A stretch of 59,594 nucleotides of DNA from contig DASXLG010000271.1 in NCBI GenBank assembly GCA_036496425.1, positions 1 through 59,594 of the forward strand, given 5' to 3'. The stretch comes from Terriglobia bacterium. GTDB taxonomy: Bacteria > Acidobacteriota > Terriglobia > 20CM-2-55-15. The position numbers and the translations under genes are program-made. This document shows positions 27,738 through 58,037 of the stretch, one piece after another (the first letter of the stretch is position 1; every line of letters starts with the position of its first letter). The notes below the pieces were generated by a model. That model was not told the origin of the DNA. It did not search any database and worked only from the letters and a program-made list of their open reading frames with translations.

Positions 27738-30347
27738 GTGAAAACTTTCGCGCACTACGAACTCATCGATACCATCGGCCGCGGCGGTATGGGAGTCGTC
27801 TATAAGGCGCGCGACACGAAACTCGGCCGTTTTGTGGCTCTCAAGTTTCTACCCGAGGACCGGGCCACCGACAAGCGGCTGATCGCCCGATTCCGCCGCG
27901 AAGCGCGGGCCGCTTCCGCGTTGAATCATCCGAACATCTGTACGATCTATGATATCGATGACGCCGCCGGTCAGACGTTCATCGTTATGGAGTTGCTGAA
28001 CGGCGTTTCTCTCCGGGACTTTATTCACGGCCAGCCTCTTGCCATCGACGCAGCCATATCCATTGCGATCGAAATTACGGATGCTCTTGAAGCGTCACAT
28101 GCCGGCGGTATCGTTCATCGGGATATCAAACCTTCGAATGTGTTTGTTTGCGCCAACAACCGGATCAAGGTTCTTGATTTCGGACTCGCGCTGCAGACCG
28201 AGCCTGTCGATGTGCCGGGTGAGATCGGCCGCACCATTGATGCTCACGAGCTGACGGTCTCGGGCACCGCCATCGGTACCATCGCATATATGGCGCCCGA
28301 ACAGGCCCGCTGCGAAGAGGTGGATGGGCGCGCCGACCTCTTCTCCTTTGGAGCGGTGCTGTACGAAATGCTGACGGGGCGGCCGGCATTTGCCTCCAGT
28401 TCGATCGCGCTTACGTTTCAGGCGATATTGAGCGGAAATCCGAGGCCTCCTTCTGAAATCAATCCCGCTGTCACTCCGAACCTCGAACGGATTGTCCATC
28501 GTCTGCTCGAGAAGGATCGCGAGCGCCGTTATTCGTCGGTCGGCCAGCTCAAAAGCGACCTGGAGCGGCTTCGCATTGGACAACCGCCGGTTCAGGCCGG
28601 CCCTGCGCCGCGCCTGCGGCGGTCATGGATGTTGGCGAGTGCGGCCGTTCTCCTGTCCGGCGTGGTCGTCTGGCTGGGTTTTCACAGCAATCCGCCGAAG
28701 CCCGCATCGGATGAATCGGTATTCACTCACTTCACCAGCCAGCCCGGTCCCGAACTGTTTCCAAGCTTTTCTCCGGACGGCAAAATAGTGGCATATGCCG
28801 GCAGGTCGTCTGGAAACTGGGATATCTACATTCAAAGGGTTGGCGGGCACAATCCGATCAATCTCACGCTGGACTCTGCGGCTGACGATACGCAGCCGGC
28901 GTTCTCACCGGCCGGAGAGTGGATCGCCTTCCGTTCGGAACGTGATGGAGGCGGCATTTTCATCATGGGAGCCACCGGCGAGTCCGTTCGGAGAGTGTCC
29001 GATTTTGGTTTCAATCCGGCGTGGTCGCCGGACGGCAAGCAGCTGGTTTTTGCGGAAGAGACTGTGGAAGATAGTCCGCAATACAGGTATACGAACAGCA
29101 GTTTGTGGACAGTTGCCGTCGCGACGGAAGAAAAGAAAAAGCTATTCCCCGGCGATGCCGTCCAGCCGCAGTGGTCCCCTCACGGCGATCGGATCGTGTA
29201 CTGGGCGAGAAACGCAGGCCAACGGGACATCTGGACCATTCGAGCCGATGGAACCAATCCCGTAGCCTTGACGAACGATAAGTCATTGGACTGGAGCCCG
29301 GTGTGGGCCGCCGACGGACAGGCTGTGTATTTCTCCAGTGATCGCGGCGGAGCGACGGACCTCTGGCGAATGCCCGTCGAAGAGAAGACCGGCCGCAGCA
29401 TTGGGGCTCCGCAGGCTGTCACAAAAGGAGGCACAGCGCAGCGGCTGCACCCGACAATCAGTACTGACGGGAAAAATATCGCCTACGTCGAGGAAACCGT
29501 TACAGAGAACATTTTCCAGGTCGCCTTTGATCCCGTCTCCGGCCGAACAGCCGGACCTCCAAAAGCGGTCACCACTGGAGCACGTACTGTAAGCGCTCCC
29601 GATGTGGCGCGGGACGGAAAGCATATTGCGTTTCAGTCTCTCGGCAAGAAGATGGACATTTACGTGGCGGGCATCGATGGCACGGGTGAGAGGCAACTGA
29701 CCGACGATGAGTTTCAGGATCGTATTCCACGCTGGGCGCCCGGCGGGAAGCAGATCGCTTTCTACAGCAATCGCACCGGCCACTTTCAAATCTGGTCGAT
29801 CAACGCGGACGGCAGCGGCTTGCGCCAGCTTTCCGACGACGGATCGAGCGGCGTCCTTCGCGCCGTCTGGGCTCCCGATGGCAATCACCTTGCGGCCCGT
29901 CATGAGGACGGAACAACATTCATCCTCAGCCTGCTTTCAGGAGAATCGATGCGTTCGATTCCATCGCCTCCGAATGCATCCGAGATCTTCGATGTCTGGA
30001 ACTGGTCGCCCGACGGCAATTGGCTTGCGGGTCATCGAAACTCCCGCGCGACGGGACAATCGGTGGGACTCGCTCTCTACTCCCTGCAAACCGGAATGTT
30101 TCAGACTTTGGCCGGCCTCGGAAGCTTTCCTGTCTGGTTGAAGGACAACCGCCGGCTCCTCTTCACAGACAGGAGCAAAATTTACAGCGTCGACCGTCAG
30201 TCCCTCAAAATATCCGAGGTTCTTGATGTCAAACCGAACCTGATTGCCAGCCTGGGACAGTTGCCGGACGATAACAAAATCGTCGTTTTCAGCGAAGAAC
30301 AGCGGGAAGCGGATATCTGGCTTCTGACCCGCGGCACGTCGAAGTGA
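27738..30347 (+). CDS. Membrane Ser/Thr protein kinase with TolB-like propeller
   Basis: 869 residues, GTG start. The kinase domain occupies residues 8-275: glycine loop GRGGMGVVYKARDTKLG (14-30), Lys36, HRDIKPSNV (127-135), DFGL (147-150) and MAPEQAR. One membrane segment follows (about 298-315). The exported remainder has repeated PD40/TolB units (FPSFSPDGKIVAYAG, PAWSPDGKQLVFAEE, RWAPGGKQIAFYSN), a six- to eight-bladed propeller likely to sense a ligand. This architecture is common in Acidobacteriota. The borosin promoter candidate begins at the base after its stop codon. Confidence 0.93.
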   Translation: MKTFAHYELIDTIGRGGMGVVYKARDTKLGRFVALKFLPEDRATDKRLIARFRREARAASALNHPNICTIYDIDDAAGQTFIVMELLNGVSLRDFIHGQPLAIDAAISIAIEITDALEASHAGGIVHRDIKPSNVFVCANNRIKVLDFGLALQTEPVDVPGEIGRTIDAHELTVSGTAIGTIAYMAPEQARCEEVDGRADLFSFGAVLYEMLTGRPAFASSSIALTFQAILSGNPRPPSEINPAVTPNLERIVHRLLEKDRERRYSSVGQLKSDLERLRIGQPPVQAGPAPRLRRSWMLASAAVLLSGVVVWLGFHSNPPKPASDESVFTHFTSQPGPELFPSFSPDGKIVAYAGRSSGNWDIYIQRVGGHNPINLTLDSAADDTQPAFSPAGEWIAFRSERDGGGIFIMGATGESVRRVSDFGFNPAWSPDGKQLVFAEETVEDSPQYRYTNSSLWTVAVATEEKKKLFPGDAVQPQWSPHGDRIVYWARNAGQRDIWTIRADGTNPVALTNDKSLDWSPVWAADGQAVYFSSDRGGATDLWRMPVEEKTGRSIGAPQAVTKGGTAQRLHPTISTDGKNIAYVEETVTENIFQVAFDPVSGRTAGPPKAVTTGARTVSAPDVARDGKHIAFQSLGKKMDIYVAGIDGTGERQLTDDEFQDRIPRWAPGGKQIAFYSNRTGHFQIWSINADGSGLRQLSDDGSSGVLRAVWAPDGNHLAARHEDGTTFILSLLSGESMRSIPSPPNASEIFDVWNWSPDGNWLAGHRNSRATGQSVGLALYSLQTGMFQTLAGLGSFPVWLKDNRRLLFTDRSKIYSVDRQSLKISEVLDVKPNLIASLGQLPDDNKIVVFSEEQREADIWLLTRGTSK

Positions 30348-30376
30348 TTGACCGGCTGCGGCGCATAGCGTAGTAT
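30348..30376 (+). promoter_or_regulatory. Candidate sigma70-like promoter of the borosin operon
   Basis: TTGACC (30348-30353) and TAGTAT (30371-30376) are separated by exactly 17 bp. A transcript would start near 30383, giving a leader of about 48 nt. It begins directly after the kinase stop codon, so the downstream pair has the means to be expressed independently. Five of six and four of six matches to consensus; prediction only. Confidence 0.5.
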
Positions 30377-30430
30377 CCGGGCCTCACTGCAGTACCGTTA
30401 CACACATACTCAATCGTGCAGGAGGTTGCG

Positions 30431-30757
30431 ATGTCGACACAAGAGAACCCGGTACCTTTAAATCTTGCGCACCTGTTGGTCGAACTTTCACAAAATATCG
30501 AGAAGCGGGAACAGTTCCGCCGGAATCCGTCTCCATTTCTTGCAAACAATGAATTCAATCCGAAAGAGATTGAGGCGCTTCTGAGCAGGGATTCACAGGC
30601 AGTAAGGCAGGCATTTGGCCTCAGCCTCGGGCATGCCGGATTGGATGCCCACGAAGATTTCATCCGCGAGATCGTGCGCGACGAAATCAAGAAGGCCAAG
30701 AAAAAGAAGCCGTCCAAGAAGAAAGACAAAGCGGAAAAGAAGAAGAAAAAGAAGTAG
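30431..30757 (+). CDS. Split-borosin-type precursor peptide with lysine-rich tail
   Basis: 108 residues from ATG 30431, with a perfect AGGAGG five bases upstream; a GTG at 30416 is less likely. Residues 12-63 (LAHLLVELSQNIEKREQFRR, then PSPFLANNEFNPKEIEALLS) match in layout the borosin-binding leader of split borosin precursors such as SonA: a helix, an F/Y-x-x-NP-type turn, then a helix beginning NP(K)EI. Residues 64-86 (LSLGHAGLDAHEDFIREIVR and on) form a linker or helix. Residues 87-108 hold 16 lysines among 22, in a purine-only tract of the gene. The methyltransferase that would act on it starts 8 bp later. In known borosins the core is C-terminal and N-methylated on hydrophobic residues. 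Here the C-terminus is polycationic, so the modified region is open: the tail itself, or residues 64-86 with the tail as a targeting tag. Leader assignment is by pattern. Confidence 0.8.
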   Translation: MSTQENPVPLNLAHLLVELSQNIEKREQFRRNPSPFLANNEFNPKEIEALLSRDSQAVRQAFGLSLGHAGLDAHEDFIREIVRDEIKKAKKKKPSKKKDKAEKKKKKK

Positions 30758-30765
30758 CCGGCGGA

Positions 30766-31560
30766 GTGAAAAAGGGAAGTTTGACGGTTGTAGGCACCGG
30801 CTATCAGGTCGCCGCTCAGATGACGCCCGAAGCGGTCGATCACTGCCGGAAAGCAGACAAGCTTTTTTACGTGGTGGATGCGGTGACGGAGGTGTGGCTG
30901 ACACAGCTCAATCCGTCCGCCGAATCCCTCGCAATTTGCTACGCGCCGGGAAAACCTCGTTTCGTTACATACGGCGAAATGGTCGAACGCATCCTCAGCG
31001 CGGTCCGCGCTGGGGATCGGGTTTGCTTCGCACTGTACGGGCATCCCGGCGTGTTCGTCCATGCGTCTCACGAATCCATCAAGCGCGCCCGGCTCGAGGG
31101 CTTCGAAGCGAGCATGCTGCCTGGAATTTCCGCCGAAGACTGTTTAATCGCGGATCTCGGTTTCGATCCCGCCAAAGGCTGCCAGAGCTTCGAGGCCAGC
31201 CGCTTCATCGTCCGGAGGCGCGCTCCAGACACGACTGTGCCGCTCCTTCTCTGGCAGATCGCGCTCGTGGGTACCATGGATTTCGACCCGAAGGGGCCGC
31301 CGGCGAATGAAGCCGGCCTCAAGCTGCTGACGAAGACGTTGCTCAAAAGCTATCCCCGGCGCCATGAAGTCACGGTGTATGAGGCGTCGCCGTTTCCGGT
31401 TTGCGATCCCATGATTGACCGCCGTCCGCTCTGCGACCTGCCCCACGCCCGGGTGACGACATCTTCAACGCTTTTCGTGCCGCCCGCGGAAGAGGCGCCC
31501 GTCAATCACCGCATCATGCGGATGCTGCTCGGGTTCAACGGTTCGAGGGGCAGGTTGTAG
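30766..31560 (+). CDS. Borosin alpha-N-methyltransferase (TP-methylase family, SonM-like)
   Basis: 264 residues, GTG start. It closely follows the split borosin methyltransferase SonM: LTVVGTGYQVAAQMT (SAM site, residues 6-20), WLTQLNPSAESLA, TYGEMVERILSAVRAGDRV (68-86), ALYGHPGVFVHASH (89-102), MLPGISAEDCLIADLGFDP (117-135), CQSFEASRF (139-147), LLLWQIALVG (160-169). Tyr91 in YGHPG and the upstream Tyr69 lie where the catalytic tyrosines of these enzymes are found. Such enzymes N-methylate backbone amides of a peptide bound through a leader domain. Unlike fungal OphMA, the substrate is a separate protein, encoded 8 bp upstream. It is too unlike CobA/CysG for tetrapyrrole biosynthesis, and no such pathway genes are nearby. 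Weak ribosome binding site, so translation is probably coupled to the precursor. Confidence 0.9.
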   Translation: MKKGSLTVVGTGYQVAAQMTPEAVDHCRKADKLFYVVDAVTEVWLTQLNPSAESLAICYAPGKPRFVTYGEMVERILSAVRAGDRVCFALYGHPGVFVHASHESIKRARLEGFEASMLPGISAEDCLIADLGFDPAKGCQSFEASRFIVRRRAPDTTVPLLLWQIALVGTMDFDPKGPPANEAGLKLLTKTLLKSYPRRHEVTVYEASPFPVCDPMIDRRPLCDLPHARVTTSSTLFVPPAEEAPVNHRIMRMLLGFNGSRGRL

Positions 31561-31582
31561 CCGGCTTTATGGGCAGGCCATT

Positions 31583-31603
31583 CCCCGCCTTTCCAAGGCG
31601 GGG
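31583..31603 (+). terminator. Strong GC hairpin after the methyltransferase
   Basis: CCCCGCCTT, loop TCC, then AAGGCGGGG: a 9-bp perfect stem 23 bp after the stop. No T-run follows, so it is a pause or 3-prime-end stabilising hairpin rather than a classic intrinsic terminator. It separates the borosin pair from the next gene. Confidence 0.45.
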
Positions 31604-31745
31604 TGGCTGAGCCATCAATAAAATGGTCCCGTTCCTGAGCGGCGCAGACGGGGCGGTTAGTAATTTCCATCAACAAAGAACTGTTTTGGTGTTTGAACGC
31701 GGGGATGTGCGCGTCGTCAAAAACAGTTACAATCTCCTCATTGCC

Positions 31746-33674
31746 ATGATATCCCGTAAAATCTTCCTCGTTGGGTTTGGATCGCTTGCCTTGCTTGTGG
31801 GCTCACTGCTGGCGCAGCAAAAGACGCCGCCACTGACCCCGGATATTCCGCAAAAGTTCGACGTGCCTTCCGGCGCCTACGACTACGTCAAACGCGATGT
31901 CATGATTCCGATGCGAGACGGCGTAAAACTCCACACCGTCATTATCGTGCCGAAAAGCGCCCAACGGTCGCCGATCCTTCTCACACGCACGCCGTACAAT
32001 GCCTCGGCTCGCTCGTCGCGCAACGATTCGCCGCATGTTGTCGCCGCTCTCCCCCTCTTCGATGAGTTATTCGTTGCCGATGGTTACATTCGTGTATACC
32101 AGGACGTCCGTGGCAAGTACGGCTCCGAAGGCGAGTATGTGATGACACGTCCGCTGCGCGGCCCGTTGAACAAAAGCAGCGTCGATCATTCCACCGACGC
32201 GTACGACACCATCGACTGGCTGGTGAAGAATGTTCCCGAATCGAACGGCCGCGTCGGCATGGTGGGCAGTTCTTATGAAGGGTTTACCGTTGTCATGGCC
32301 CTGGTAAATCCGCATCCCGCTCTCAAAGCGGCCGTACCCGAGAGTCCCATGGTCGACGGCTGGATGGGCGACGACTGGTTCCATTACGGCGCGTTCCGCC
32401 AGATCAACCTCGATTATTTCAGCGAGCAAACCAGCGTCAAAGGCGAAGGCGCCTCCGTCGTGCGCGAGGGCTATGACGATTACGCAAACTTCCTGCGCGC
32501 AGGCTCGGTTGGAAACTGGGCGAAAGCCGCCGGTTTCGACCAACTCCCCTGGTGGCACAAGGTGGGGGAGCATCCGGCCTACGATGAGTTCTGGCAGGAT
32601 CAGGCGCTCGATAAGATCATGGCCGCGCAGCCGTTGACTGTCCCGACGATCTGGCTGCAGGGGCTTTGGGACCAGGAAGACATGTGGGGCGCTATCCACA
32701 GCTATCTCGCGGTTGAGCCGAAAGACACGAACAACGACAAAAACTTCCTGATCATGGGGCCGTGGTATCACAGCCAGATCAATAGAGACGGCTTTTCGCT
32801 CGGCCCGTTCCGGTGGAATGGCGACACCACGCTGGAAGTCCGCCGCGACATCCTGAAGCCGTTTTTCGACCAGTATCTGAAGGACGGGACGCCAAAAGCC
32901 AACACGCCGCCGGTTCTGATCTATAACACAGCTGAAAACCATTGGGATCGATTCAGTTCGTGGCCCAGGTCCTGTGCATCGGGCTGCGGATGGAAAGCGA
33001 AAGCGCTGTACTTCACGACAAACTTCGGGTTGTCGTTCACCGCGCCGGCCGCCTCCCAGCCGGGCACGGCGTACGATGAGTACGTTTCCGATCCCGCGAA
33101 ACCCGTTCCTTACCAGCCGCGTCCTGTCCGGTTTGCCGATACCGACGCCTGGAGACGCTGGCTTGTCGCCGACCAGCGCGCATTTGTGGATCGTCCGGAC
33201 GTCCTGAGTTACGTGACTCCTCCGCTGACCGAAACCGTCCGCCTCGGTGGCGCTCCGATCGTGCATCTCGTCGCATCCACAACAGGAACCGATAGCGATT
33301 GGATCGTAAAACTGATCGACGTCTATCCGGACGAAGTGCCCAGCCAGCCCGAACTGGGCGGCTATGAACTGAGCATCGCGATGGATATCTTTCGCGGCCG
33401 CTATCGCGAAAGCTTCGAGCTTGCTCAAGCCATCACGCCGAACAAAGCGCTGCCGTTCACGTTTGCCTTGCCGACTGTAAATCATGAGTTCAAGCCGGGC
33501 CACCGCATCATGGTTCAGGTGCAATCGGCGTGGTTCCCGCTCTATGACCGGAATCCGCAGACATTCGTGCCGAATATCTTCTTCACGAAGCCTTCTGACT
33601 ACATCAAGGCAACTCAGCGGATCTATCACGCCGCCGGCCAGAGCAGTTATATCGACCTTCCGGTCGTGCCGTAA
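31746..33674 (+). CDS. CocE/NonD-family exported hydrolase (S15-like)
   Basis: 642 residues from ATG 31746 (MISRKIFLVGFGSLALLVGS, then LLAQ, a signal peptide). Alpha/beta hydrolase: nucleophile Ser176 in GMVGSSYEGF, conserved VYQDVRGKYGSEGEY, DGWMGDDWFHYGAFR, and a C-terminal jelly-roll domain (ELSIAMDIFRGRY, FKPGHRIMVQVQSAWFPLYD). The family includes cocaine esterase, alpha-amino-acid ester hydrolases and X-Pro dipeptidyl peptidases; alpha-amino-acid ester hydrolases are the closest in layout. It lies 185 bp downstream of the borosin methyltransferase on the same strand with a hairpin between. A link to borosin processing is only a possibility. Confidence 0.9.
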   Translation: MISRKIFLVGFGSLALLVGSLLAQQKTPPLTPDIPQKFDVPSGAYDYVKRDVMIPMRDGVKLHTVIIVPKSAQRSPILLTRTPYNASARSSRNDSPHVVAALPLFDELFVADGYIRVYQDVRGKYGSEGEYVMTRPLRGPLNKSSVDHSTDAYDTIDWLVKNVPESNGRVGMVGSSYEGFTVVMALVNPHPALKAAVPESPMVDGWMGDDWFHYGAFRQINLDYFSEQTSVKGEGASVVREGYDDYANFLRAGSVGNWAKAAGFDQLPWWHKVGEHPAYDEFWQDQALDKIMAAQPLTVPTIWLQGLWDQEDMWGAIHSYLAVEPKDTNNDKNFLIMGPWYHSQINRDGFSLGPFRWNGDTTLEVRRDILKPFFDQYLKDGTPKANTPPVLIYNTAENHWDRFSSWPRSCASGCGWKAKALYFTTNFGLSFTAPAASQPGTAYDEYVSDPAKPVPYQPRPVRFADTDAWRRWLVADQRAFVDRPDVLSYVTPPLTETVRLGGAPIVHLVASTTGTDSDWIVKLIDVYPDEVPSQPELGGYELSIAMDIFRGRYRESFELAQAITPNKALPFTFALPTVNHEFKPGHRIMVQVQSAWFPLYDRNPQTFVPNIFFTKPSDYIKATQRIYHAAGQSSYIDLPVVP

Positions 33675-34083: not shown

Positions 34084-34220
34084 GGGGGAGGACCACAAAG
34101 ATATATTGGAAGTTGCAACATTAGAGGTTTCTGCATTTAACATTTGAAATGCAGAAACCTCTAATGTTGCAACTTCCAATATTTTCTTTTCTGCTTCTTG
34201 TGGTTCCTCCCCTTTGTTGC
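34083..34220. repeat. Palindromic element C1, 36-bp perfect arms inside a second palindrome
   Basis: Arms 34103-34138 and 34147-34182 are exact reverse complements with an 8-nt loop. They contain GTTGCAACATTAGAGGTTTC. Outside them AAGGGGGAGGACCACAAAG (34083 on) and TTGTGGTTCCTCCCCTTT (34199 on) also pair, so two palindromes are nested. Related sequence lies at 57956. Confidence 0.93.
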
Positions 34221-57955: not shown

Positions 57956-58037
57956 TTATTGCACCATTGCAACATTGGAAGTTTTTGCAGTTCTAAATTG
58001 AAATGCAGCAACTTCTAATGTTGCAATGGTGCAATAA
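57956..58037. repeat. Palindromic element C2
   Basis: Arms 57956-57992 and 58001-58037 pair with about four mismatches. The inner GTTGCAACATTAGAAGTTGC type sequence (right arm reverse complement) is shared with element C1 at 34103. It follows the mutM stop by 10 bp and precedes the end of a convergent gene. Confidence 0.9.

Follow-up and report, generated by a model that had tools for sequence, protein, structure and literature searches.

Many split borosins are listed in bacteria. To our knowledge, none has a known natural function. The closest described relative of the locus studied here is the SonA/SonM pair of Shewanella oneidensis (type IV; PDB 7LTC and others), in which a separate methyltransferase of ~263 amino acids accompanies an adjacent precursor carrying a borosin binding domain (BBD). 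The SonA BBD is described as five helices, with the linker and core placed directly after it (PMC8429565). SonM contacts its substrate mostly through the backbone and is largely indifferent to side chains; the single changes Y58F, R67K and Y71F cost it 14- to 98-fold in catalytic efficiency, and almost no activity is left in R67A or in the Y58F/Y71F double mutant (PMC8429565). In the fused fungal borosins OphMA and dbOphMA, the enzyme, the clasp and the core are in one chain.

We analyzed a contig of 59,594 nucleotides (hereafter the window; DASXLG010000271.1, assembly GCA_036496425.1) from a soil-type Acidobacteriota. An initial annotation, made from the sequence alone, had placed a split borosin RiPP locus there and had rightly called the genome acidobacterium-like. 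The proposal is supported: the enzyme goes with SonM and OphMA, and the precursor has a BBD of the SonA type (Table 1). By nearly every defining feature that can be reached from sequence and predicted fold, the locus is a split borosin, and the best explanation, which we hold to be very probable, is that the enzyme methylates the precursor after its leader. The polylysine tail of the precursor and the conserved kinase upstream come in addition to what the annotation had described.

Table 1. Features of the locus, in window positions (residue numbers are those of the precursor)
Feature	Position	Strand	Evidence or remark
Sensor Ser/Thr protein kinase	27738..30347	+	Pfam Pkinase 1.5e-47, PD40 4.7e-41; orthologues upstream of borosin pair in relatives
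Promoter-like TTGACC-17-TAGTAT	30348..30376	+	9/12 consensus positions; 0.4 expected in shuffles
Ribosome binding site AGGAGG	30420..30425	+	5 nt before ATG; sequence
Split borosin precursor, 108 aa	30431..30757	+	only window ORF matched by BBD profile, E=7e-9
Borosin binding domain (leader), residues 11-63	30461..30619	+	five-helix bundle, AlphaFold2; Foldseek matches to SonA
Post-leader segment, residues 64-86 (LSLGHAGLDAHEDFIREIVRDEI)	30620..30688	+	position equivalent to SonA linker and core; predicted helix 73-90
Polylysine tail, residues 87-108 (KKAKKKKPSKKKDKAEKKKKKK)	30689..30754	+	16/22 Lys; sequence; similar basic ends elsewhere
Borosin alpha-N-methyltransferase, 264 aa, GTG start	30766..31560	+	SonM E=1e-59; model; catalytic residues
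Peptidase_S15/PepX_C hydrolase	31623-33674		after borosin pair; not conserved beside other borosin loci

Methyltransferase, leader and expression signals

The elements follow each other closely on the forward strand: the kinase stop (30347), the promoter-like site (from 30348), AGGAGG (30420-30425), the precursor from ATG (30431) to stop (30757), and the enzyme from GTG (30766) to stop (31560). The ribosome binding site, the 108-residue frame, the 8-bp gap and the GTG start were all recovered at the positions previously reported, and the translation contains the five enzyme motifs quoted (GTGYQVAAQMT, YGHPGVF, CQSFEASRF and LLLWQIALVG among them). Precursor and methyltransferase are separate open reading frames, divided by a stop codon and 8 bp, which is not the arrangement of fused borosins (types I-III). 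SonA/SonM differs in layout from the window, where the precursor precedes the enzyme and the kinase lies upstream. The promoter-like site is present as annotated and is the sole such site within 30250-31800, but taken alone it is a weak candidate given its 9/12 consensus positions and the 0.4 sites expected in shuffles. A same-family relative (L113) has TTGACC-18-TAGCAT at the equivalent place, which adds a little support, and its precursor ATG is also preceded by AGGAGG. The promoter-like site could uncouple precursor from kinase; since the gap between these two genes is only ~34 bp in a same-genus relative (L114), cotranscription is also possible.

Elsewhere in the window, a "tRNA-Pyl" called by ARAGORN at 57961-58033 was rejected: it is a long inverted repeat (57967-58026) where Rfam finds no tRNA, and no PylS scored over the cut-off. 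Positions 34113-34172 hold a similar inverted repeat.

Searched against all PDB sequences, the enzyme matches SonM (1e-59) and the OphMA family (~1e-47), the best cobalamin enzyme being the precorrin-2 methyltransferase CobI (0.007). A borosin profile made from 81 borosin enzymes, with the window enzyme left out, gives it 351 bits, against 19.6 and 3.3 bits for the genome's other two TP-methylase genes. Family placement is by these profile scores; a tree in which further TP methylases served as outgroup was discarded because their branches reached the limit. No equivalog among the NCBIfam models for cobalamin, siroheme and RsmI enzymes passed (best 42.8 bits, cut-off 525). The predicted structure (mean pLDDT 87) has SonM as its best PDB match (TM 0.87, 45% identity) and shares the methyltransferase fold of OphMA and dbOphMA (TM 0.9), whose clasp is homologous to the BBD. 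All eight catalytic and lock residues of SonM are kept: Y58, R67, Y71, Y93, F99, E146, W166 and Q167 correspond to Y59, R65, Y69, Y91, F97, E143, W163 and Q164 of the window enzyme. The first four are the catalytic ones, and the SonM pattern noticed in the initial annotation is borne out, as is the grouping with SonM/OphMA and not with cobalamin or siroheme enzymes. A difference from SonM is the acidic top-clamp residue E173, here Thr. Sequence and predicted fold together show a discrete methyltransferase of the SonM/OphMA clade with its catalytic residues.

Some enzymes at other loci look different. Two relatives, one of the same family and one of the same genus, have a second, tandem borosin-type methyltransferase that lacks active-site residues (L113:2456-3316 and L114:1915-3024; in the alignment SonM Y71 is Cys, Y93 is Ser or Gly, and R67 is Val or Trp), and these are likely pseudo-enzymes paired with an active one. 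At L118:6312-7271, a BBD is fused N-terminally to a methyltransferase with Pro, Thr and His at the positions of R67, Y71 and Y93, and the fusion is flanked by two copies that retain all three. In cyanobacterial enzymes (L024, L026, L028, L031, L036 and 11 other loci) the position of SonM Y58 is Asn, and the precursors, at those of these loci that have one, mostly carry a DPxPDP-rich tail. A genome of the same class encodes a distant borosin-like methyltransferase (L011:233-2274), which scores 118 bits with the borosin profile and immediately follows an ORF carrying a radical-SAM-like CxxxCxxC motif; the two possibly form a hybrid pathway.

The 108-residue protein had been proposed as the precursor, and both profile and predicted fold agree. 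It is the sole match among 661 window ORFs (E=7e-9) of an iterative profile that began with the SonA leader and took in relatives encoded next to borosin enzymes in public genomes, with the window excluded. AlphaFold2 predicts helices at residues 12-21, 23-31, 33-38, 44-52 and 55-61 (block mean pLDDT 85-93). The SonA-like leader placed by the initial annotation at residues 12-63 is thus present, although as a five-helix bundle rather than in a two-helix layout. In Foldseek searches of the PDB, SonA chains and the OphMA clasp make up the nine best matches, with TM(target) up to 0.8 and 1.5 A over ~50 residues for SonA. The small size of the domain keeps the Foldseek E-values weak (0.4 or more), yet it is telling which proteins are matched. 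Together, the profile and the predicted fold show a separately encoded precursor with a BBD.

There is a distant likeness of the leader to the LigA subunit of the LigAB dioxygenase (fold match 1bou) and to Os1348-type NHLP leaders. However, Pfam LigA (E 0.076) and NCBIfam NH_RiPP_Os17 (E 0.069) score below curated cut-offs, and the window has no dioxygenase partner. The precursor is poorly conserved among relatives. Its N-terminal 88 residues, searched in 247 Acidobacteriota genomes, matched nothing besides themselves except three BBD-methyltransferase fusions, in their BBD part. We found no second full-length precursor of this kind in the host genome, only two weak partial matches.

Post-leader segment and polylysine tail

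The window precursor is longer than SonA, ends in polylysine and is without a hydrophobic SonA-like core. In other words, it does not have the short hydrophobic or beta-branched core typical of most split borosins. Residues 64-90 are mixed, charged and helix-like, with FIREIV as the only hydrophobic stretch, and the lysine tail comes next. From its position, the post-leader segment is most likely the methylation target.

Basic C-terminal ends occur in other precursors from Acidobacteriota (L019, L025, L061, L068 and the same-family L102), Actinomycetota (L050), Myxococcota (L034) and Thermoplasmatota (L021, L032). In each of them a Lys/Arg-rich end comes after the BBD, and a borosin methyltransferase is encoded alongside. 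Of the 573 long ORFs at the same loci, only 9 have an end with at least 40% Lys+Arg. Unlike the window precursor, most of these basic-tailed precursors retain a short core-like stretch ahead of the tail (DHMTIITKK, GTGIMTRQA and NHVATTVGV are examples). A same-genus precursor (L103) carries its basic stretch N-terminally, and its leader is followed by an ordinary core-like segment (HLKMMGFLVDSEFEPI). Plotted on the enzyme tree, the tail requires ~six changes. Given its recurrence, its N-terminal place in one relative and these changes on the tree, we take the tail to be a movable module and not the core: in these sequences it is probably a separate basic part, gained and lost repeatedly, that lies outside the methylated core. 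Another Acidobacteriota precursor (L112, 11674-12273, reverse strand) carries AIKAKTA repeats after its BBD, similar to repeated cores.

Signalling genes at split-borosin loci

The upstream kinase has an N-terminal Pkinase domain, a putative membrane segment (~residues 295-317) and C-terminal PD40 beta-propeller repeats. A search of 12 related genomes gave, as the best matches, orthologues directly upstream of the borosin pair in two relatives (G248, 50%; G254, 46%); the next best reach 43% or less, and five genomes have none at threshold. The same order of kinase, precursor and enzyme is found at L019, L025, L039, L068 and L090, where the kinase ends 10-61 bp before the precursor and these kinases have TPR or FGE-sulfatase C-termini. 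This conserved gene order in the compared genomes suggests that the kinase is the third member of the unit. The L112 contig has three such units in a row.

Basic-tailed bacterial loci with intact flanks have a Ser/Thr kinase too, though with C-termini that are mostly TPR and not beta-propeller. Their archaeal counterparts have a nucleotidyl cyclase instead, with TPR in the one scanned. Split borosin loci also occur in records labelled Thermoplasmata and Methanomassiliicoccus, which are archaea (L021, L023, L027, L032, L041, L045).

A kinase, nucleotidyl cyclase, GGDEF or histidine-kinase gene was found nearby in 44 of the 52 split-borosin loci with full flanks, against 3 of 26 RsmI control flanks (Fisher p ~4e-10), although the signalling HMMs were seeded from these same split-borosin loci, so that the exact first figure is provisional, and the control flanks, from genomes of the same set, were drawn from loci already inspected. 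Since the borosin loci of the control genomes have a signalling neighbour in 26/26 cases, the full set was used for the comparison. The signalling enzyme is usually the adjacent gene. Thermoplasmatota and several Actinomycetota and Alphaproteobacteria have class III cyclases in this place (those scanned also carry TPR, or AAA plus TPR), Shewanella (L079, L089, L091) and its relatives GGDEF proteins, relatives of Alteromonas histidine kinases (with TPR in the single one scanned) and Cyanobacteria Ser/Thr kinases (with an AAA domain in the single one scanned). An adjacent signalling gene is therefore another trait shared with SonA/SonM, and a GGDEF domain is mentioned in a figure of borosin types (PMC11395268). 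Our literature search on borosins with kinases, lysine-rich sequences or archaea returned nothing on point; the papers defining types V-X were outside that search, and basic-tailed or kinase-linked forms may already be among these types.

From the gene neighbourhood, split borosins may work in signalling. A functional link between the borosin pair and the kinase seems to us plausible at somewhat under even confidence.

Alternative readings and proposed role

The alternative that survives best is a protein modification system instead of a natural-product pathway, and we regard it as nearly as likely as not. The methylated precursor would stay intact as a regulatory protein, with methylation as a mark for folding or protease resistance, and no small peptide would be released. 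The length of the precursor, the basic module found at one end or the other and the conserved signalling neighbours fit this reading, as does the composition of the unit, which has no conserved protease or transporter. We set aside the downstream S15 peptidase as a candidate for processing, since it has no homologue at other borosin loci. However, processing enzymes may be elsewhere in the genome, and split borosins are generally regarded as RiPP pathways.

It is unlikely that the lysine-rich tail is itself the core, methylated at many amides and released as a polycationic N-methylated peptide, for example an antimicrobial. The recurrence of Lys-rich C-terminal stretches, the (AIKAKTA)n precursor of L112 and the indifference of SonM to side chains (PMC8429565) would suit such a product. 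Yet the L103 precursor has its basic stretch N-terminally and an ordinary segment after the leader, several basic-tailed precursors retain a core-like segment before the tail, and a conserved exporter is missing from the unit, as is a conserved protease.

That the kinase is a chance neighbour, in a three-gene order inherited within one family only, appears improbable. The host genome has about 20 Pkinase genes, kinases of this sort are widespread in Acidobacteriota, and the phylum often has beta-propeller and TPR forms. However, at ~one kinase per 300 kb, only a few percent of loci would be expected to have one, while most Acidobacteriota loci do, often at 10-60 bp from the precursor, and other phyla fill the same place with unrelated classes of signalling enzymes, in contrast to the rarity of such genes at the control flanks. 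Finally, an ordinary tetrapyrrole methylase of cobalamin, siroheme or RsmI type beside an unrelated basic protein is hardly credible, since Pfam's assignment of the enzyme only to TP_methylase is outweighed by the PDB search, the profile scores, the low scores of the genome's other TP methylases, the fold and the BBD of the upstream neighbour.

In the split borosin reading that we prefer, the methyltransferase would bind the five-helix leader of the 108-residue protein and, with SAM, would methylate backbone amides just after it (residues 64-90), like SonM on SonA. The charged post-leader segment without a typical core, the Thr at the top clamp and the poor conservation of the precursor weigh against this reading. 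The polylysine tail would probably lie outside the methylated core; it may tether the modified protein to a polyanion (nucleic acid or membrane), or be the acting part itself. With a membrane sensor kinase in the same unit, the modified peptide would probably join its signalling as ligand, regulator or substrate. We tentatively extend this proposal, as a possibility that falls short of an expectation, to the split borosins of bacteria and archaea. They could be the peptide part of signalling cassettes made of a signal enzyme, a BBD precursor and a methyltransferase, in which the N-methylated segment would regulate the neighbouring enzyme and the basic module would be a second, movable part. 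The signal enzyme of such a cassette would be a Ser/Thr kinase, a class III cyclase, a GGDEF protein or a histidine kinase, and would often carry TPR, AAA or propeller modules.

The locus and its relatives thus offer a testable proposal for the function of split borosins. The conserved signalling partner and the polybasic module point to intracellular regulation and not to a secreted natural product, and the locus widens the range of proposed substrates for a class of enzymes that makes drug-like N-methylated backbones.
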